A stretch of 40,659 nucleotides of DNA from assembly GCA_017474485.1 (NCBI GenBank), contig JAFVHO010000101.1:1-40659 (forward strand), given 5' to 3'. Origin of the DNA: Prevotella sp. Lineage in GTDB: Bacteria; Bacteroidota; Bacteroidia; Bacteroidales; Bacteroidaceae. Numbering within the stretch: the first letter of the stretch is position 1; every line of letters starts with the position of its first letter. Positions 18,375 to 40,424 of the stretch are shown one piece after another. The notes beneath the pieces were generated by a model. The model ran no database searches and was not told the origin of the DNA. It saw only the letters and a list, made by a program, of their open reading frames with translations. The translations under genes were made by a program, and so were the position numbers.

Positions 18375-20379
18375 TTCTCAGCACAATAAATTCTGTACGA
18401 CGGTTCAGCTGGTTGCACTGCTCCTGCTGTTCATCATTCTCCAGCGTCTTGATGAATTCTTCCGTCAAGACGTCGTTTTCTTTCAGGAAGGGATATTTCT
18501 CAGTCAACTTCTTACGGATAGTCTTTGGTTTCTCCTTGCCATAGCCCATAGGAGTCAGACGGTCAGCCTCGATGCCGTGCTCCACCAAATATTGAACAAC
18601 GGTTTCGGCACGTCTCTGACTCAGAAGTTTGTTATATTCGGCTGGTCCCTTGTAGTCACAATGTGCGCTGAGTTCTATAGCCACGTTGGGATTGTCCTTC
18701 AATAGCGCCACCAGTTTGTCAAGTGACTCAGTAGATTCAGGTCGAAGGGTGGCTTTGTCGAAGTCGTAGAAGATGTTGTCAATCATCACTGGTGCTGTGA
18801 TTGAGGCTAGTGGGAACTGTAACACATACTCCATCGATTCGTCTACTGAGTCGACGCGCAACTGCTCCTGATGGTTTAGGAAACCTTTGCAGGTGCCCAG
18901 CAGTACATAATCTACGTTTGGCTTGATTTCCTGCACAAATGATCCATCACCTTTCACGCTCAATTTCAGGTTTGTACCATCGTTGCCAATCAGGTATACC
19001 TGTGCCTGTGGCAACTCGTAGCCCTCTGCCTCGTATACCCAGCCCTTGATAGTCTGGATGATTTCGGGCTTCTCAAACGAGAAGATATGGTCCCACCCCT
19101 TGCCGTCACCACGATTCGACGAGAAGAAACCTTTGTTGTTCATCCCTTCAAAGGTCATGCCGAAGTCGTCGCCCTGTGAATTCAAAGGATATCCTGGGTG
19201 TTCGATGATGTAGAGCTGAGAGTTTCTCGAAATATTATCGTGGGTCTCGATGGGTTTGGCGATATAGATGTCCAAACCACCCATGCCCTCATGTCCATTA
19301 CTCGAGAAGTAGAGGTCGCCATTGGGACGGAATGTGGGAAACATCTCGTCGCCTGCTGTGTTGATAGGAGCGCCAACGTTCTCTACACCACCTAAACCGC
19401 TGCTGGTCAGTCGTACGCGCCAGATGTCGTAGCCGCCCTTACCACCTGGCATGTTACTTGTAAAGTAGAGCCATTCGCCATCGGGACTGACGGCAGGGTG
19501 GGCATAGGCTGACAGCGTGTCGCGTGTCAAAACCAGTTCTGTGGCTTTGCTCCATGCAGCATCCGAACGTTGACTGGTAGCAATATTGGCATAGCGTGGA
19601 TATTGGCCGTCTGTCTTGCACTGTGTTAGGTACATGGTTCGTCCGTCGGGAGTGAAAGAGCAGACACCTTCTTCACCATCACTATTTAATTCTGAGTCTA
19701 TCACTTCAGGACGTTGCCATTTGCCTTTGTCATCCTTTGTAGAGACGAAGATGTCGGCATTCTTCGTACCTGTGATGCCGCTCAATTCATCGCCCTTAGC
19801 CTGATTACGTGTCGAGGTGAAAAAAAGCTGGTTACTCTCCTCGCCAACTAACATGGGAGAATATTCCGAACGTCGCGAGTTAAAGAAGTTCTCGCGCTTC
19901 ACGATATAACGCGAACCTTCCTCCTTCCATGTAGGTGCTTTCTGCGATGAACGCAGTCCTGTGCGGGCAACAGGAATGAGGGACGAGAGTTTAGGGTTTA
20001 GAGAAGCAGAATCCAAGAATGTCTGGAAACTCTTCGCAGCTTCCTTGTACTGGCCGTTCTTCATCAACTGCTCAGCCAGATGCAGATGTGTCAATGAGTC
20101 GGTCTGCTTATAGCGTACAGCATTGTTATAGGCAGCAATGGCCTTTTGGGTATAGTTAATCTTGCGATAGCTCTCAGCCATCTTCAAAGCACGTTGCCCT
20201 CTCAGTGCACGTTCCTTGGCAGGTGTCTGCGAATAGGCTTTTTTATACTGCGCGGCAGCATCATAGTATTCGCCAAGGGCATAGAACCTATCCCCCTTCT
20301 TGATAGCTTGTTCAGCACCACATCCCATCAGGAACAATGCCAACAGCCAGCAGCCAATAGCCAATTGCCAATTCTTCAT
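18346..20379 (-). CDS. PorE-like lipoprotein (TPR, PD40 propeller, CRD, OmpA domain)
   Basis: The 677-residue lipoprotein has its lipidated Cys at residue 20 (LALFLMGC). Domains in order are TPR repeats (about 25-150, ALGEYYDAAAQYKKAY), a PD40/WD40-like propeller (about 165-425; YSPMLVG, FTPDGRTMYLTQC and AVSPDGEWLYFTSN), a carboxypeptidase-regulatory-like domain (about 440-525), and a C-terminal OmpA peptidoglycan-binding domain (about 545-670; IFYDFDKATLRPES, SQRRAETVVQYLVEHGI). This is the architecture of PorE (PG1058) of the P. gingivalis type IX secretion system. The Trp/Leu/Gly-rich signal peptide is encoded by a heptamer array. It could be another paralogue, since PD40-OmpA proteins are numerous in Bacteroidota. 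Confidence 0.85.
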   Translation of the reverse strand: MKNWQLAIGCWLLALFLMGCGAEQAIKKGDRFYALGEYYDAAAQYKKAYSQTPAKERALRGQRALKMAESYRKINYTQKAIAAYNNAVRYKQTDSLTHLHLAEQLMKNGQYKEAAKSFQTFLDSASLNPKLSSLIPVARTGLRSSQKAPTWKEEGSRYIVKRENFFNSRRSEYSPMLVGEESNQLFFTSTRNQAKGDELSGITGTKNADIFVSTKDDKGKWQRPEVIDSELNSDGEEGVCSFTPDGRTMYLTQCKTDGQYPRYANIATSQRSDAAWSKATELVLTRDTLSAYAHPAVSPDGEWLYFTSNMPGGKGGYDIWRVRLTSSGLGGVENVGAPINTAGDEMFPTFRPNGDLYFSSNGHEGMGGLDIYIAKPIETHDNISRNSQLYIIEHPGYPLNSQGDDFGMTFEGMNNKGFFSSNRGDGKGWDHIFSFEKPEIIQTIKGWVYEAEGYELPQAQVYLIGNDGTNLKLSVKGDGSFVQEIKPNVDYVLLGTCKGFLNHQEQLRVDSVDESMEYVLQFPLASITAPVMIDNIFYDFDKATLRPESTESLDKLVALLKDNPNVAIELSAHCDYKGPAEYNKLLSQRRAETVVQYLVEHGIEADRLTPMGYGKEKPKTIRKKLTEKYPFLKENDVLTEEFIKTLENDEQQEQCNQLNRRTEFIVLRTTYGLTQKK
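20338..20372. repeat. Heptamer array encoding the PorE-like signal peptide
   Basis: Five units read on the plus strand as TGCCAAC, AGCCAGC, AGCCAAT, AGCCAAT and TGCCAAT, beginning seven bases inside the gene's start codon. They encode the hydrophobic core WQLAIGCWLLAL. A change of one unit would shift the frame. Confidence 0.75.
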
Positions 20380-33091: not shown

Positions 33092-35920
33092 ATGAAACAG
33101 AAAAAACTATTATTGGTGACTGCTCTCTTGCTGACAGTTCTATGGGTAAGGGCAGCAGATGGCGACACATTTACGGCAGCAACTGTCGAGGGTGTCGAAT
33201 TAACTTATAAAATTATCAGTGAAGCAGAAAAGACTTGTCAGGTGGGCGAGGGTGAAATAAACCATTGGGCTTATCCCTCATCAGAAAATCCGTCTGTAGT
33301 TACTATTCCTTCGGAGGTGAATGGCTATAGAGTAACGAGCATAGGAAGTTGGTCGTTTAATAATAAAAGAGATCTGATAAATATCAATATTCCGAATACT
33401 GTTGTAGAGGTAGGAGAATCTGCTTTTTCTGGATGTCGGCTACTTAAAGACATCAACTTACCCGATGGACTGACTGCTATCAGCGACGAACTGTTCTACG
33501 ATTGTCAGACATTGACAAGCATCACAATCCCTGCAGGAGTGACGAGCATTGGCCGAATGGCATTCAGTAGCTGTTCAAGATTAAGTTGTATTCATCTGCC
33601 AGATGGACTGAAAACCATAGGAGAATCTGCTTTTTATTACTGCAACCAACTCTACACTATAGACATACCTGATGGTGTAACTGCCATCGGTAATTATGCA
33701 TTTGGTAATTCCAGCATCTTGCAATGCCAATTGCCAGCAGGCCTAACCGCTATACCTAAAGGTTTGTTTACTTGGGGTAAACTGAAGAATATCGTCATAC
33801 CAGATAATGTGACAACTATTGAGGAAGCGGCTTTTGAGCATTGTCAGGATCTAGAGAGCGTACTCATTCCAAGTACAATGACAAATGTTGACGTAAAAGT
33901 TTTCCAATATTGCTCGAAATTGAAAACAGTGAGATTCTTAGGCGATGTTCCTGCCACTTTGGCAACCGATGCTTTCTATTATGTCGGCAATTCTTGGTTT
34001 GGTACTAAACCAACCTTAATAGTTCCATCAAGCTATCTGGCTAACTATCAGACAAAGATAAGTGGTACGTCGTTCTGTGGTGGTACGTTTAGCGGTATTC
34101 AGGCTGCCAGCAGCGATATACCTCTTTCGCCTTATACAGCCAATGGCATCGTTTATACCTATGCGAATGGCAGCTATGCCGTAACAGGCTATGATGCAAC
34201 AACAGCAGAGACAAGTTCTAATAAGCTGATAGTTGCCAGCGAGATAGACGGTTATACTGTGACCAGCATTGCCGACGATGCATTCAGCAATGCAACCAGT
34301 CTGCTGACGATTACCGTACCCAGTTCTGTAAAAAGCATAGGTGAACGTGCCTTCTCAGGATGTTCCAGCCTGACGAAGGCAGAACTGACTACAGGACTGA
34401 CAATTATAGGTGACTATGCCTTCCAGAACTGTGCGTCACTCGTCCTGTCATCTGTTCCTACTGGTATAGAGAAGTTGGGACCTGTGTTCGAAGGATGCAG
34501 CAACATAACAAGCATCTCGTTGCCAACAATTAAAGAACTGAATGGAACGTTCAAGGAATGTACCAATTTGAAATATGTATACATGTATGACGGTCTGTCT
34601 GTTATTGGAACAAACACCTTTACCAACACGGGACTTACGATGGTAACAATCCCTGCCAGTGTGCAGACGATATCGGCAGGTGCCTTCAAGGATAGTCCGT
34701 CTCTGACGTGCATAAAATTCAGCGGAGACATACCTGCAAACATAGATGGTGCAGCTTTCGATGGCTTAGGAACAGTAGAAACCCCTGCATTGTTAGTCGT
34801 GTCAATGGACTATCAGCCGAATTATCAAGCAGAGTTCGTTGAAGGAAAATTTTATGGTGGTTGGTTCAAAATCATTGCTACAGGTGCCCTCAATGGCATT
34901 GTGTATGATTTCTACACTGACCACTATATAGTTGCAGGATATGATGAGGCTACGGCTGCCCCATTGGACTATAAACTGACCATTGTCAGCCAGATAGGTG
35001 GATATGACGTTACCCAGATAGACCATACTGGTATGGATGGAAGTGAACATATGAAGAGCATCGTAATACCTGCTACAATTACTGTTATTGGTAAGGGCGC
35101 TTTCCGTGATTGCAGTAATCTGTCATTGGTCGTTTTTGAAGGCGATGTACCAGAATTGTACTACGGGACCTGCTTCGATGGTGTGGGAACGAGCGAGAAT
35201 CCAGCCATCCTGTGTGTACCTGTGGCCTATGTGGAAAACTACAAGAACACGTTTAGCAACGGTAGGTTCGATGGCGGTTACTTCACTCTGGTGACCCCTT
35301 CAGTCGACATCACGACGGCAGCGGCTGGCTACGCCACTTATTACAACTCGAAAGCAGATGCAACGCTGCCCGCCGGACTGGTGGCATATACTATAAGTGG
35401 ACTGGCATCGGCATCTCATCCTGCCTATAAGCAAGTGACAGGCAATATCATTCCAGCAGGACTGGCTGTCATGCTATACAGCGCTGAGGGAGAAACTGCA
35501 GGAGAGTCGAAAGCGTATACGATAGACCTTGACTATACAGTCACCCCTGATACTGAAGCCAATAACGGTAATTGGTTGTATGGTTCAGATATCGACTGCA
35601 CGACAGCAACCGACGGTGCGGCAAAATACTATAAGCTAAGCTATAGCAAGACTAACAGCGAACAGTTTGGATGGCATTGGGGAGCAGCAGACGGTGCTGC
35701 CTTCGCCATAGAGGGACACCGTGCATGGCTGGCTCTGCCTGGCAATATGAGTTCTCCGTCTTTGACCTTGCCGAACCATCTTGGAATAATGGCTGTAGAT
35801 GGGCTGAAGACTGACGATACAGGATGCTGTGCTGATTATCATGACATGCAAGGTCGTGTGGTGAAGAATCCCGTTCGCGGACTGTATATTAGAAACGGAA
35901 AGAAGGTAGTTGTTAAATAA
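33092..35920 (+). CDS. BspA-type leucine-rich repeat surface protein
   Basis: The 942-residue exported protein has a signal peptide ending near VRAADG. At least three blocks of BspA/LRR_5 repeats follow (for example VTSIGRMAFSSCSRLSCIHLPD, VKSIGERAFSGCSSLTKAEL, ITVIGKGAFRDCSNLSLVVF). The blocks alternate with beta segments that share the pattern NGIVYTYANGSYAVTGYD. A C-terminal region ends in DMQGRVVKNPVRGLYIRNGKKVVVK, similar to the end of the protein at 7876-8688. BspA-type proteins bind host or matrix proteins; the role here is inferred. It is followed 14 nt later by a small ORF. No consensus promoter is obvious. Confidence 0.88.
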   Translation: MKQKKLLLVTALLLTVLWVRAADGDTFTAATVEGVELTYKIISEAEKTCQVGEGEINHWAYPSSENPSVVTIPSEVNGYRVTSIGSWSFNNKRDLININIPNTVVEVGESAFSGCRLLKDINLPDGLTAISDELFYDCQTLTSITIPAGVTSIGRMAFSSCSRLSCIHLPDGLKTIGESAFYYCNQLYTIDIPDGVTAIGNYAFGNSSILQCQLPAGLTAIPKGLFTWGKLKNIVIPDNVTTIEEAAFEHCQDLESVLIPSTMTNVDVKVFQYCSKLKTVRFLGDVPATLATDAFYYVGNSWFGTKPTLIVPSSYLANYQTKISGTSFCGGTFSGIQAASSDIPLSPYTANGIVYTYANGSYAVTGYDATTAETSSNKLIVASEIDGYTVTSIADDAFSNATSLLTITVPSSVKSIGERAFSGCSSLTKAELTTGLTIIGDYAFQNCASLVLSSVPTGIEKLGPVFEGCSNITSISLPTIKELNGTFKECTNLKYVYMYDGLSVIGTNTFTNTGLTMVTIPASVQTISAGAFKDSPSLTCIKFSGDIPANIDGAAFDGLGTVETPALLVVSMDYQPNYQAEFVEGKFYGGWFKIIATGALNGIVYDFYTDHYIVAGYDEATAAPLDYKLTIVSQIGGYDVTQIDHTGMDGSEHMKSIVIPATITVIGKGAFRDCSNLSLVVFEGDVPELYYGTCFDGVGTSENPAILCVPVAYVENYKNTFSNGRFDGGYFTLVTPSVDITTAAAGYATYYNSKADATLPAGLVAYTISGLASASHPAYKQVTGNIIPAGLAVMLYSAEGETAGESKAYTIDLDYTVTPDTEANNGNWLYGSDIDCTTATDGAAKYYKLSYSKTNSEQFGWHWGAADGAAFAIEGHRAWLALPGNMSSPSLTLPNHLGIMAVDGLKTDDTGCCADYHDMQGRVVKNPVRGLYIRNGKKVVVK

Positions 35921-35934
35921 AGAATCCCTAAAGC

Positions 35935-36096
35935 ATGAAATACAAGAAATTTTATTCTGCCCCCACATGTGAGGCTATTGTCATCGAACAGAACGATGTA
36001 TTGTTGGCAGGCTCTCCTGAAATTTACGATGAAGAGGGAGATGCCTCCTATAGCCCTGAATATCCGTTACAATGGGATTTCTATACTTTTGATTGA
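35935..36096 (+). CDS. 53-residue Prevotella-type small peptide
   Basis: The ORF starts at ATG 35935, 14 nt after the LRR gene, and ends at TGA 36096. It reads MKYKKFYSAPTCEAIVI, then QNDVLLAGSPEIYD and a Tyr/Asp-rich tail. The layout (basic start, YxxPxxxVI-type strand, LLAGSP, acidic tail) matches a class of short peptides I associate with genes of exported Bacteroidales proteins, of unknown function. There is no hydrophobic signal peptide. The GC-rich hairpin at 36118-36148 follows. A real gene is likely from position and composition; a precursor-like role is speculation. Confidence 0.65.
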   Translation: MKYKKFYSAPTCEAIVIEQNDVLLAGSPEIYDEEGDASYSPEYPLQWDFYTFD

Positions 36097-36257: not shown

Positions 36258-36289
36258 TTTGTCGTTTAAGATAAAATGCTTATCTTTGC
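36258..36289 (+). promoter_or_regulatory. Full consensus promoter of the caspase operon
   Basis: TTTG (36258-36261) and TATCTTTGC (36281-36289) are 19 nt apart, matching the Bacteroidota TTTG-N19-21-TAnnTTTG consensus. It is the only complete two-part match I found in the window. The start at 36334 gives a leader of about 38 nt. Confidence 0.85.
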
Positions 36290-36333
36290 AGCCATGGCGG
36301 AGAATCCGTCGCAGACATGACAATACTTCAATA

Positions 36334-36858
36334 ATGAAAAAACCGATGAAAATAATGAGATTATGTTGTGTTGTGTTAAGCATGCTTTTCTGTATGAACA
36401 TCACACTGAGTATGGCAGGTGTACCCGGCAGCAAGGGTAGCCTGAAGAAAGAATGCCGACAATATTACAAGAAACTCAAGGCAGAAGGATGGGAGGGATG
36501 GAGCAATCCGGAGGTATTGCAAGCTGACGTAAACGCCTATTTTTCGCTCTTGGAGGATGACGGTGATATGCTGTCTATTATAGGACAAGGTACAGATAAG
36601 GATAAGGACAAGGCCAGACGCAAAGCTGAAATGAATGCCAAGTCACAACATGCCCACAGCAAGGGCGGAACGACGAGCAGCCATTTTGTGGCAACTGAGA
36701 AGACCGACGGTACAGGTACAGATAGTACAACGCTGGTTTTGGGCATACAATCCAATGTCAGTAGGAAGGTGGAACTTCCCCAGCCATCGCTTCGCATTCT
36801 CCGTAAACGCCCTGACGGTCTTATCGATGTACAACTCTACTATCTATTAAAACAATAA
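36334..36858 (+). CDS. Exported LPP20-like protein, first gene of the caspase operon
   Basis: The 174-residue protein has a signal peptide (IMRLCCVVLSMLFCMNITLSMAG). A helical SLKKECRQYYKKLKAEGWEGW segment follows, then a stretch LSIIGQGTDKDKDKARRKAEMNAKSQ that resembles the G.G....AR..A..NA core of LPP20/SIMPL-like periplasmic proteins. The C-terminal part ends in GLIDVQLYYLL. There is no lipobox. I reject the longer ORF from 36259 because it starts inside the promoter. The function of the family is not established. The next gene repeats the Ala/Lys-rich theme, so the two may share a partner. Confidence 0.75.
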   Translation: MKKPMKIMRLCCVVLSMLFCMNITLSMAGVPGSKGSLKKECRQYYKKLKAEGWEGWSNPEVLQADVNAYFSLLEDDGDMLSIIGQGTDKDKDKARRKAEMNAKSQHAHSKGGTTSSHFVATEKTDGTGTDSTTLVLGIQSNVSRKVELPQPSLRILRKRPDGLIDVQLYYLLKQ

Positions 36859-36928
36859 TTTGAATGATTCATACCAAAAGAAATGTTATTATCAAAGAGG
36901 TAAAAAACTAAAACGTATATTACAAGTT

Positions 36929-37822
36929 ATGATTCGAAATACAATTCTTCTCATTGTGGCTCTGGTAGCCTTTCCTGTGATGATGCACGCGCAACGTGTT
37001 GAAGAGGTCAACGGAAAATATACCTATACAATAGGTGATAATGACCACATCACCCTGCGTGAGGCTAAACACAAATGCATCGAACTGGCAAAAGCCGAAG
37101 CCATCAAGAAGGTTTTCGGCGAAATCGTTACCTCCGATGTCATTGACAGCAATGCTGAAACCAATGGCGAGGCCACGAGCTCATTCTTCTGGGAAAATAC
37201 CGTTGCAATGGCAAAGGGCGACTGGTTAATGAATACTAAAGAACCTGAGATAGAAGTGGAATATAACGACGGCAAACTGACCTTCAAGGCTGAAGTATGG
37301 GGGAAAGTGCGCGAGATTACTCCCCCTTCAACCGACCTGAAATGGACGGTTATGAAGGGTGGCGATGCAGGTAAAGTGGAGACCACTCAGTTTAACAGCG
37401 GCGAGCGTGTCTATGTCAATTTTCAGTCGCCTGCTGACGGCTTCGTAGCCATCTATCTTGTGCTAGGCGAAAACGAAACGTGCTGCCTGTTGCCCTATAG
37501 AAATGATCCTTCTGGACGTTACCCTGTGAGAAGCGGTAAAGAATACGAATTCTTTGATAAAGAGGTGAACCACATGGCAGTGAACTACAATCTCAAGACT
37601 AAGCAACCTTTGGAGTACAACCAGTTGGTAATTATTTATTCGCCGTTTCCGTTTACCAAGTGTATTGACAACGTAGGCGACCGACGTCATCCCAACTCGC
37701 TGAATACACGTGAGTTCCAAAAATGGCTGCTCAACTGTCAGCGGAAAGATCGCGACATGGTGGTGCAGAAGAAATGGATAGAGATACGTGGCACACAGCC
37801 TGCCAATAGCAATAATAATTAA
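36929..37822 (+). CDS. Exported DUF4384-like protein, second gene of the caspase operon
   Basis: The 297-residue protein starts at ATG 36929, giving signal peptide IRNTILLIVALVAFPVMMHAQ; an upstream TTG is rejected. Residues about 35-140 contain ITLREAKHKCIELAKAEAIKKVFGEIV, an LPP20/FlgT-N-like helix, and strands KLTFKAEVWGKVREI. Residues about 145-250 (GERVYVNFQSPADGFVAIYLVLGENETCCLLP) match the DUF4384 pattern. As I recall, DUF4384 often occurs with C14 caspase domains, and a caspase gene lies two genes downstream. It probably folds as a periplasmic or surface accessory. The gap to the next gene is 17 nt. Confidence 0.75.
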   Translation: MIRNTILLIVALVAFPVMMHAQRVEEVNGKYTYTIGDNDHITLREAKHKCIELAKAEAIKKVFGEIVTSDVIDSNAETNGEATSSFFWENTVAMAKGDWLMNTKEPEIEVEYNDGKLTFKAEVWGKVREITPPSTDLKWTVMKGGDAGKVETTQFNSGERVYVNFQSPADGFVAIYLVLGENETCCLLPYRNDPSGRYPVRSGKEYEFFDKEVNHMAVNYNLKTKQPLEYNQLVIIYSPFPFTKCIDNVGDRRHPNSLNTREFQKWLLNCQRKDRDMVVQKKWIEIRGTQPANSNNN

Positions 37823-37839
37823 TCAAAACAATTATAGCA

Positions 37840-38769
37840 ATGAGAAAAAAACTTATTTTACTAATTACCAGTATGGCATTCACAAGTGCCTTTGCACAAA
37901 ACGTGAATGATGATGAACAGCAGAAGTACATCGACTGGGCTGAAGATTCTACAGAGATTACTACTATTAGCGACATCATCAGAGAACAGCAGGAGATTAA
38001 CTCGCGCAACAACAGTTTCCGTCATTTTGAGGAGGTATGGGGGCGTAGGGGCTACTTCAATATCGCCTATGCTAATTCTACCTTGGATCCGGATGGGCAG
38101 ATTCCGACAGGCATTGGTAACGGGGTCGTATCTAAGTTTAAGTCTGACTGGGGAGCATCAATTCAACTGGGGCGTAGCTATCGCCTTCATAAGAAAGCTA
38201 TTGCCAACACTTTGCAGTTCAATATTGACTACACTTATATTGACCTCGGTGTCAACCACTTCAAGGCCGCAGACGGTGACTATCTCTATGATAGTAGCAA
38301 CAAGAAAACTGTGATTAACGGTGCGAAGACTGAGACCTATTACTATATACCCTGGAATCTTGAGAAGTATGAAGCCAACTACAGTATGAGTTTAGGTCCT
38401 TCACTGACCATTGCCCCCTTCAACTATATCAAAGCCAGAGGACTCCACCATATGAAGTTCAATGCATACTACCACATAGGTTATGGCGTGTCATTTCTTT
38501 ACATGAAGAATAAGAAAGAGGCCGATCTGAACCACCAGAACGTGGACAATGCAGATTATAAGGAGATGAGCGACAACCTAAAGCTCTGTTGGGGCCACGG
38601 TCTTACCAGCAGTTTCGGTTTCACCATGTCATGGAAGGTCATCGGTATAGGTTATGAGCACCGTTCAGCTACATGGACTTACAAATCAATGAATACTAAA
38701 GAGTTTGAAGACGACAGCAATAAGTTTAAGTCGGCAACAAACCGTGTTTTCATCCAGTTCAGAATGTAA
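37840..38769 (+). CDS. Exported beta-barrel-like outer-membrane protein
   Basis: The 309-residue protein has a signal peptide (MRKKLILLITSMAFTSAFAQ). From about residue 65 it shows alternating strands rich in aromatic residues (GYFNIAYANSTL, DWGASIQLGRSY, FNIDYTYIDLG, FNAYYHIGYGVSFLY) and ends in VFIQFRM. That pattern suggests an 8- to 12-stranded barrel or autotransporter-like protein. No family is recognised. It lies third in the caspase operon, 65 nt before the caspase gene. Confidence 0.7.
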   Translation: MRKKLILLITSMAFTSAFAQNVNDDEQQKYIDWAEDSTEITTISDIIREQQEINSRNNSFRHFEEVWGRRGYFNIAYANSTLDPDGQIPTGIGNGVVSKFKSDWGASIQLGRSYRLHKKAIANTLQFNIDYTYIDLGVNHFKAADGDYLYDSSNKKTVINGAKTETYYYIPWNLEKYEANYSMSLGPSLTIAPFNYIKARGLHHMKFNAYYHIGYGVSFLYMKNKKEADLNHQNVDNADYKEMSDNLKLCWGHGLTSSFGFTMSWKVIGIGYEHRSATWTYKSMNTKEFEDDSNKFKSATNRVFIQFRM

Positions 38770-38834
38770 TAGTCAACAGTCCCTTTTTTAATTACAAGCA
38801 TTAAAATATTATCAATTTTAAAAACATTAGTATT

Positions 38835-40355
38835 ATGATGAAAAGATATTTAGCAGTTGTCTTGATGGCAATTATATGCATACCGGCAGCCTTTGCTCAG
38901 TCGGCTGTCTATAAATTGGATGGCACCTGTGGTGAAGACGCGAAATGGACATTCGATGGATATACACTTACAATCCAAAATGTTAACAATCGTGGAGAGA
39001 GCGTAGAGATTAAAGACTACGACCTAAATATTCAAAAAGCTCCCTGGATAAAAAAGAAGCTTAACGTGAAGAAGGTTGAAATAGGAGCGAATATTACACG
39101 TATTGGTTCGTGTGCTTTTGCCAACTGCACAGAACTACAAGAGGTAATATTCGAAGGAACAAACCTGACTGATATAGGCTGGGCCGCGTTCCTTAACTGC
39201 AGCCGACTGCGCAACATCTCTCTGCCCCGTCAACTACGAAATATTGAGACCATCGCCTTTGCCGAATGCTCGTCGTTGACAGCCGTCAGCATTCCGTCAC
39301 AATGCCGTGTGGGTAATCAGGCATTCGCCTCTTGTACCAATATCAAGACTATCGAACTTGGACCTACTACCATACTGGGCCATCATACCTTCGCAAGTGA
39401 GGTGGAGGTTGACGACATGATACGTCACTCTCTCTATAATGGTGAGATTCGTTCGCTTCCCTCCTACATCAACAAGGAAAACTGCCATGAATTCGGACTG
39501 TCAATGCCGTCGGTAGCCAAACTGTTGGAAAACCAAATTTCGAAAGTGAATTATGACGTGAAAACATCGTCGGTAGACTCTATGATTCCTAGCACCATAA
39601 GAACGCGCCAGGATACATACGCTCTCATTATTGGCAATCAAAACTATCGCTTCGTGGCCGACGTGCCATACGCCATTCACGATGCCCGTGTCTTTGCCGA
39701 ATACTGCAAGAATACGCTCGGTATTCCTACCAGTAACATTCACCTTACAGAAGATGCCACTAAACAAATGATTCTGGAGGAGGAACTCGAGGATTGGGTG
39801 AAGTCAATCAGCGATCGTGAGAAAAAGACTTTGATAGTATATTATGCAGGACATGGTGTTCCTGATATTAAGAACAAGAATAAAGCTTATATCTTGCCCA
39901 CTGACGTACGCGGAACGAATCCTCGAAGGGGGATAGCCCTCGACGATTTCTATGCAAAAATAGGCGATCTGGCCTTCAATCACGTTTCAGTGTTCATGGA
40001 TGCATGTTTCAGCGGTATCAACCGCGATAACGAAGGCGTGTCTGAGGGATTACGCGGTGTGGAAATCGAAGCTGAAGAAACCGCTGTTGGCAATGGTCGT
40101 ATCGTGGTATTCTCTGCTGCCCAGGGCAACGAGACTGCTCAAGGTTATCCCGAGCAGGGACACGGTCTATTCACTTACTATCTGCTGAAAGAAATTCAGA
40201 ATTCTTCCGGCTATATCAAGCTTGGCGACCTGTCAGACAGACTGAAATACAACGTATCGCAGCAGGCCACACAGATGAAGATGAGAAAGAAGCAGACACC
40301 GGCTACTAGCGCATCGGGCGAAATTGCAGACTCATGGCGCTATCTGGATTTTTAA
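38835..40355 (+). CDS. Secreted LRR-caspase protein (peptidase C14)
   Basis: The 506-residue protein has a signal peptide (YLAVVLMAIICIPAAFAQ). BspA-like LRRs cover about residues 75-190 (ITRIGSCAFANCTELQEVIF, LTDIGWAAFLNCSRLRNISL). A linker of about 60 residues leads to a C14 domain from about 258 (YALIIGNQNYRFVADVPYAIHDARVFAEYC). The catalytic dyad is visible, His340 in YYAGHGVP and Cys391 in FMDACFSG, followed by GHGLFTYYLLKEI. It should cleave proteins outside the cytoplasm, with the LRRs possibly choosing the substrate. It is the last gene of the operon and precedes a strong terminator. A caspase with its own LRR array and signal peptide is unusual. Confidence 0.9.
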   Translation: MMKRYLAVVLMAIICIPAAFAQSAVYKLDGTCGEDAKWTFDGYTLTIQNVNNRGESVEIKDYDLNIQKAPWIKKKLNVKKVEIGANITRIGSCAFANCTELQEVIFEGTNLTDIGWAAFLNCSRLRNISLPRQLRNIETIAFAECSSLTAVSIPSQCRVGNQAFASCTNIKTIELGPTTILGHHTFASEVEVDDMIRHSLYNGEIRSLPSYINKENCHEFGLSMPSVAKLLENQISKVNYDVKTSSVDSMIPSTIRTRQDTYALIIGNQNYRFVADVPYAIHDARVFAEYCKNTLGIPTSNIHLTEDATKQMILEEELEDWVKSISDREKKTLIVYYAGHGVPDIKNKNKAYILPTDVRGTNPRRGIALDDFYAKIGDLAFNHVSVFMDACFSGINRDNEGVSEGLRGVEIEAEETAVGNGRIVVFSAAQGNETAQGYPEQGHGLFTYYLLKEIQNSSGYIKLGDLSDRLKYNVSQQATQMKMRKKQTPATSASGEIADSWRYLDF

Positions 40356-40372
40356 GATAATCCTAAGAATCA

Positions 40373-40424
40373 AAGAAGTGGGAAAAGCGTAGCTGTTAGC
40401 TGACTTTTCCCACTTCTTTTTTGC
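40373..40424 (+). terminator. Strong rho-independent terminator of the caspase operon
   Basis: A 15-bp perfect stem, AAGAAGTGGGAAAAG (40373-40387) with CTTTTCCCACTTCTT (40404-40418), encloses a 16-nt loop with its own AGCT pairing. A T-run follows at 40417-40422. It begins 18 nt after the caspase stop. Confidence 0.92.

Follow-up and report, generated by a model that had tools for sequence, protein, structure and literature searches.

Bacterial homologues of caspases have been catalogued for more than ten years (PMC3501461, 2012), and both their partners and their place of action are little known. The available text of that survey describes metacaspase operons, 14 with OmpA domains, plus one CHASE2 fusion in Trichodesmium, and that of PMC8283722 reports DUF4384 in 19 true orthocaspases. 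The present analysis concerns a four-gene locus that encodes a protease with leucine-rich repeats (LRR) and a caspase domain behind an outer-membrane barrel, in a 40,659-nucleotide stretch of Prevotella sp. DNA (assembly GCA_017474485.1, contig JAFVHO010000101.1), the whole of which is called the window below. Judging from their genomes, gut and rumen relatives of Prevotella carry this conserved gene set of an apparently exported caspase-like protease, a predicted outer-membrane barrel and putative helper proteins, and such a set suggests that a protease switch operates in their envelope.

No description of this operon was found in the literature searched, which included the available text of PMC6426788, PMC4933709 and PMC7159879 and consisted mostly of open papers without their supplements, so that the operon may be listed somewhere without a name. 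The main text of PMC3501461 contains none of the terms LRR, leucine and DUF; 'LRR' is likewise absent from the available text of PMC6426788 and 'leucine' from that of PMC8283722, and no paper was found that links DUF4384 with LPP20, or CHASE2 with a CHAT domain and a caspase. The initial annotation of the window, which knew of no named system with this set and order, agrees with this outcome; the locus apparently unites known domain families in a conserved and undescribed envelope operon. Its features are as follows (aa, amino acids).

36258..36288, forward strand: Bacteroidota-type promoter, TTTG-N19-TANNTTTG, a pattern match that is enriched before the leading gene of relatives
36334..36858, forward strand: gene 1, exported-looking small protein of 174 aa, from a weakly LPP20-like family
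36929..37822, forward strand: gene 2, exported-looking protein of 297 aa with a C-terminal DUF4384 match (under cut-off) and a weak match to an Ig-like beta-sandwich
37840..38769, forward strand: gene 3, protein of 309 aa, an 8-stranded outer-membrane beta-barrel in the structural model, with an N-terminal helix (43-67)
38835..40355, forward strand: gene 4, exported-looking protein of 506 aa with LRR_5 (75-188) and Peptidase_C14 (262-493), His340, Asp389 and Cys391
40372..40424, forward strand: intrinsic terminator, 16-bp stem (40372-40419) and T tract

Conserved linkage of the barrel and LRR-caspase genes

The comparison of loci reveals a fixed core of genes 3 and 4, with gene 2 as a usual and gene 1 as a facultative member. 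Gene 3 lies directly before gene 4 in 40 of 40 loci, gene 2 is present in 37 of the 40, and gene 1 is found directly upstream of gene 2 in 25 of 38 (L031-L068). These numbers derive from a scan of genome contigs anchored on gene 4, which yielded 40 loci, 38 of them (L031-L068) with near-full-length relatives; to these were added two loci (G059 and G001) from 100 relatives, giving the 40 that were counted. The counts exclude the window's own locus (L001) and loci without a full-length LRR-C14 protein, include one locus (L031) that is nearly the window's own genome and whose gene 4 product is 100 percent identical, and in one case (L049) rest on a layout read by eye and not by script. Alignments A1-A3 comprise 20, 37 and 35 hand-picked rows; from alignment A5 the TIR row L067 and the divergent rows L037 and L064 were removed before the profile search of the loci.

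The same linkage is recovered from the opposite direction. When 399 genomes of the family were searched with gene 3, 61 had a relative, and 20 places matched at E 2.9e-79 or better, followed by a gap to 4.6e-43. An LRR-caspase gene is next downstream of the close barrel in 18 of 18 fetched places and gene 2 next upstream in 17 of 18; with the own locus and G059 included, these values become 20/20 and 19/20. The 20 close barrels are spread over 6 of the 30 genera searched, and the two below-gap barrels that were fetched adjoin neither an LRR-caspase gene nor gene 2. The anchor is independent and the genomes partly are not, as 12 of the 18 barrel-anchored loci very probably come from genomes of the gene 4-anchored set and 6 are new. 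The flanks differ: besides the module, overlapping frames, and CHASE2 and transglutaminase-like partners, no gene cluster is common to more than 5 of the 40 loci. The initial annotation had named the lack of a conserved neighbourhood in related genomes as the outcome that would speak against it; a neighbourhood was found at 40/40, 20/20 and 19/20. Its four-gene set and order hold for the barrel-caspase pair, while genes 1 and 2 are not obligate.

Transcription signals and surroundings

The intergenic gaps between genes 1 and 2, 2 and 3, and 3 and 4 measure 70, 17 and 65 bp, and the four genes are predicted to share one transcript. The strict promoter pattern (spacer 17-23) occurs twice on the forward strand of the window, the second time at 18886, and never on the reverse strand. 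Near the start of the leading gene it is present in 11 of 34 testable relatives (200 shuffles: mean 0.35, maximum 2), compared with 2 of 72 control windows before the internal genes 3 and 4. The terminator has a stability of -27.2 kcal/mol (z -6.29), equalled in 0 of 200 shuffles. A sigma-70 scan of the window did not list the promoter, nor did a simple terminator scan list the terminator. Both signals had been proposed beforehand, as one full consensus promoter at 36258-36289 and a 15-bp-stem terminator at 40373-40424, and both were recovered with boundaries shifted by a base and a stem of 16 bp.

Upstream of the operon is a gene for a 942-aa BspA-type LRR protein (33092-35920), and between it and the operon promoter a short open frame (35935-36096) encodes what by eye is a small acidic peptide. 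Of ten further window genes that were scanned, nine fall into families usual for a chromosome (among them a TonB receptor, an OmpA/PD40 protein and a Mur ligase-alanine racemase fusion), and the tenth has no match.

The LRR-caspase and the barrel

The product of gene 4 matches Pfam LRR_5 (E 9.6e-25) and Peptidase_C14 (E 2.1e-18, 67.3 bits against a curated cut-off of 21.4), and the latter is matched by all 40 sequences of its family at E up to 0.001. None of the 40 aligned sequences departs from His340 or Cys391. The protein has both domains and, at the positions first proposed, both residues of the LRR-C14 caspase described in the initial annotation, and by sequence it qualifies as an orthocaspase-type protease with a complete dyad. 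According to the available text of PMC6426788, the basic-specificity pocket of orthocaspases has two acidic residues. In the gene 4 product Asp389 precedes Cys391 by two residues and Asp283 is invariant; these two are candidates for such a pocket, including a putative counterpart of Asp95 of TbMC2, and cleavage is probably after Arg or Lys.

Mean pairwise identity within the family is 0.61 for the LRR and 0.71 for the C14 domain. As the LRR is conserved and not diversifying, one fixed ligand is favoured over variable guidance. The exported-looking LRR contains six cysteines (C93, C98, C122, C145, C157 and C167), of which C122, C145 and C167 do not vary among 40 sequences, while at least 90 percent of these keep C93 and C157. 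In a genome of the same genus, a second C14 match with one internal stop codon (G059:C22:42171-42917) lies just upstream of the operon.

Gene 3, annotated earlier as barrel-like, folds in the model as a closed 8-stranded barrel of the OmpA/OmpW type. Conservation reaches 0.56 in the turns on the side of the termini (0.70 in turn 116-124), 0.49 in the strands and 0.25 in the opposite loops. The termini of known outer-membrane barrels face the periplasm. If this also holds for gene 3, the conserved surface would be periplasmic, and its partner is probably periplasmic as well.

Genes 1 and 2 and export signals

The product of gene 2 matches DUF4384 (PF14326) at E 1.3e-4 but with 22.4 bits, below the curated cut-off of 27, and 33 of 35 members of its family match the same profile at E up to 0.01 (best 2.5e-9). 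Its sequence, originally labelled DUF4384-like, is likely that of a divergent DUF4384 relative. The LPP20-like helices once attributed to the first two genes find no support in these comparisons: the gene 1 product has no Pfam match, and 8 of 20 members of its family match PF02169 (LPP20) at E up to 1 (best 9.4e-4); LPP20 is matched neither by the gene 2 product at E up to 1 nor by any of 35 family members at E up to 0.01, and the profiles of genes 1 and 2 do not match each other. Members of the gene 1 family occur in several copies around one operon (four in L037:6043-11770, three in L064:768-6071, two in L042:931-2155). Because of these multiple copies, gene 1 may be a diversifying component of the module.

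Signal peptides had been assigned to all four proteins and, judged by sequence pattern alone, all four do look exported. A cleavage site of the AxA↓Q type is present in 32 of 37 gene 3, 25 of 35 gene 2, 30 of 40 gene 4 and 8 of 20 gene 1 sequences. Lipobox-like sites are found in 1/37, 1/35, 3/40 and 1/20 sequences of genes 3, 2, 4 and 1, respectively.

A wider modular set

The operon appears, from sequence comparison, to be one version of a wider modular set. Order-wide, relatives of gene 2 are present in 69 of 393 genomes and 50 of 206 genera. By hand count, a PF00656 match lies within 10 kb of a gene 2 relative at 13 of 17 places in 18 genomes that were picked for having C14 matches, and a C14 gene is found in 23 of 40 gene 2-anchored stretches, several on short contigs. 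These 40 are the best-scoring places not fetched earlier; five in range (in G246, G391, G243, G435 and G197) were skipped, and no weaker ones were included. One genome (G080) keeps the order gene 1, gene 2, barrel, LRR-caspase with a barrel of the OMP_b-brl family instead, and another (G097) has the order barrel, caspase, gene 1, gene 2, gene 1. WD40 propellers of about 690 aa with a signal-peptide-like start adjoin exported-looking C14 proteases (L109:9149-11233, L128:11107-13194 and L130:927-3002), and look like a repeat partner supplied in trans.

Among loci L031-L068, a CHASE2 profile matches in 15 of 38 and a transglutaminase-like family in 18 of 38, the profiles having been built from many of the same rows that were counted. 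In the transglutaminase-like family Cys597, His624 and Asp651, which we take to be a Cys-His-Asp triad, are invariant or at least 90 percent conserved, and all its Pfam transglutaminase matches are below the cut-offs. Two of the three loci without gene 2 (L003/L102, at L102:10638-11780, and L067:10558-11751) have a TIR protein directly after the LRR-caspase; the two TIR proteins share 62 percent identity, and by eye each seems to have one membrane segment and an outer part. In some other loci the position right after the LRR-caspase is held by CHASE2. In the window's own genome, members of the transglutaminase-like family lie on three other contigs (L165, L167 and L168), one of them directly before a CHASE2 gene. 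That pair (L168:7919-10668, contig C58) stands apart from the caspase operon, and its CHASE2 gene was missed by the whole-genome CHASE2 search.

Proposed mechanism and alternatives

The conserved and presumably periplasmic surface of gene 3, together with the conserved LRR of gene 4, favours a co-transcribed envelope protease module that acts as a barrel-docked periplasmic protease switch, a reading held with middling confidence. All four proteins would be exported through Sec, as their N-termini indicate. Gene 3 would insert into the outer membrane as an 8-stranded barrel whose conserved periplasmic turns, above all 116-124, may serve as a docking platform. The orthocaspase-type protease with its complete dyad would dock there and probably cut after Arg or Lys, while its short conserved LRR may bind one constant partner, for which the barrel complex or a conserved envelope protein is the simplest candidate. 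The products of genes 1 and 2 would act in the periplasm as adaptors, presenting a signal or a substrate. The set is extended in many relatives by a CHASE2 receptor, the putative input where present, and by a transglutaminase-like protein; their occurrence suggests that an envelope signal probably switches the protease on, which would then process envelope proteins. Of the earlier working model, an outer-membrane-anchored, LRR-guided protease with periplasmic accessory proteins, the conserved operon of exported-looking proteins that ends in an LRR-caspase is supported, whereas anchoring of the caspase in the outer membrane and guidance by the LRR are putative elements.

Several observations weigh against this proposal. 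The module is known from sequence and a model, and its activity, localisation and single transcript are predictions; that gene 4 adjoins a barrel gene is no proof that the two proteins touch. The topology of gene 3 is assumed, and its N-terminal helix 43-67 (0.43) is no more conserved than the strands (0.49). Outer-membrane proteins often have variable loops on the outer side, so that those of gene 3 favour a periplasmic partner only weakly. Pairwise gene distances correlate (Mantel r 0.53-0.82), and these correlations lack an unrelated control gene, so shared descent of the genomes alone may explain them. Thirteen of 38 loci, two of them cut off, have no gene 1 in the directly upstream position, and gene 2 is absent in L003, L065 and L067 and lies downstream in L046. 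No C14 gene is present in 17 of the 40 gene 2-anchored stretches, several being short contigs, and a pattern search recognises no Cys motif in the C14 proteins L127, L137, L138 and L145 of the wider set.

The caspase might alternatively be an executioner that breaks down envelope proteins or the cell's own proteins once stress or a phage is signalled, a role that has been suggested for other caspases of bacteria. A part in programmed death has widely been proposed for C14 proteases (PMC3501461, available text), gene 4 matches the PADLOC caspase model (E 8.5e-16, 2023 library), and the CHASE2 receptors (15 of 38 loci) and the TIR membrane proteins next to gene 4 (two loci) would suit such a role. 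By pattern, however, all four proteins seem to be exported and so removed from targets in the cytoplasm and from phage replication, gene 4 is conserved and not fast-evolving, and genes 1-3 have no match in the same library; envelope-triggered death seems unlikely. A surface protease for nutrition or for host and plant proteins, displayed by the barrel and with the LRR as a BspA-like adhesin, would account for the BspA-type repeat, for the 24 matches of the gene 4 protein in its own genome (presumably mostly LRR proteins) and for the many relatives whose record titles point to rumen samples. It is nevertheless rather unlikely, as a type IX sorting domain is not among the Pfam matches of gene 4 (no dedicated test for one was made), lipobox-like sites are as rare as noted above, the presumed outer-side loops of the barrel are variable, and two further exported-looking partners are not barrels.

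The constant neighbourhood of an exported-looking C14 protein and an outer-membrane barrel gene, together with the conserved turn 116-124, could also fit a maturation or sorting device in which a barrel-docked caspase-fold protease trims exported proteins, as PorU does with PorV in type IX secretion. PorU is a C25 peptidase and the PorV barrel is larger; with a family C14 protease and an 8-stranded OmpA/OmpW-type barrel, this device is very unlikely here. That the four exported genes are chance neighbours without a common function is hardly tenable. Each of their domain types is common in Bacteroidota and their link is drawn from sequence alone, but the linkage counts, the promoter enrichment before leading genes and the differing flanks already contradict it.

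A broader form of the proposed switch would be a caspase signalling system of Bacteroidales that is modular and membrane-spanning. A CHASE2 or TIR protein would sit in the inner membrane, with LPP20-like/DUF4384 adaptors in the periplasm; the exported caspase, its recognition repeats being exchangeable (LRR fused here, WD40 neighbouring elsewhere), would dock on an outer-membrane barrel that is likewise exchangeable, and a transglutaminase-like protein with a Cys-His-Asp triad would be a second enzyme. In its logic this would be an envelope counterpart of repeat-controlled caspase activation platforms; it is tentative and on balance unlikely.

Comparison with known systems

For a bacterial caspase, this conserved gene set puts forward likely partners, first among them the outer-membrane barrel, and indicates the envelope as the place of action. 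A defined system of four proteins thereby makes it possible to test where the caspase is located, how it is activated and what it cuts. The wider set, with CHASE2, transglutaminase-like and WD40 or LRR members, suggests that envelope signalling of this kind is a general theme in Bacteroidales. With orthocaspases and prokaryotic metacaspases (PMC3501461, PMC6426788, PMC8283722) gene 4 shares the His/Cys dyad, the invariant Asp two residues before the Cys and a C14 match above cut-off, whereas its N-terminal LRR_5 and linked barrel gene set it apart from those catalogued. Cyanobacterial C14 fusions with DUF4384 or CHASE2 involve the same two domain types that accompany the caspase here, but in the present loci they reside on separate proteins encoded near an exported-looking caspase. 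The caspase domain also matches the EACC1-associated caspase model (NF047832; PMC7159879, available text) at E 2.3e-17, yet with 63.2 bits against a cut-off of 140. Gene 3 differs from the small outer-membrane barrels OmpA and OmpW in its 9-14 percent identity to OmpA/OmpW rows, its N-terminal helix and its linkage to a caspase gene. The PorU-PorV attachment complex of type IX secretion likewise pairs a caspase-fold protease with an outer-membrane barrel; PorU and PorV share this outline with genes 4 and 3, a likeness that carries no claim of membership, and differ from them in peptidase family and barrel size.
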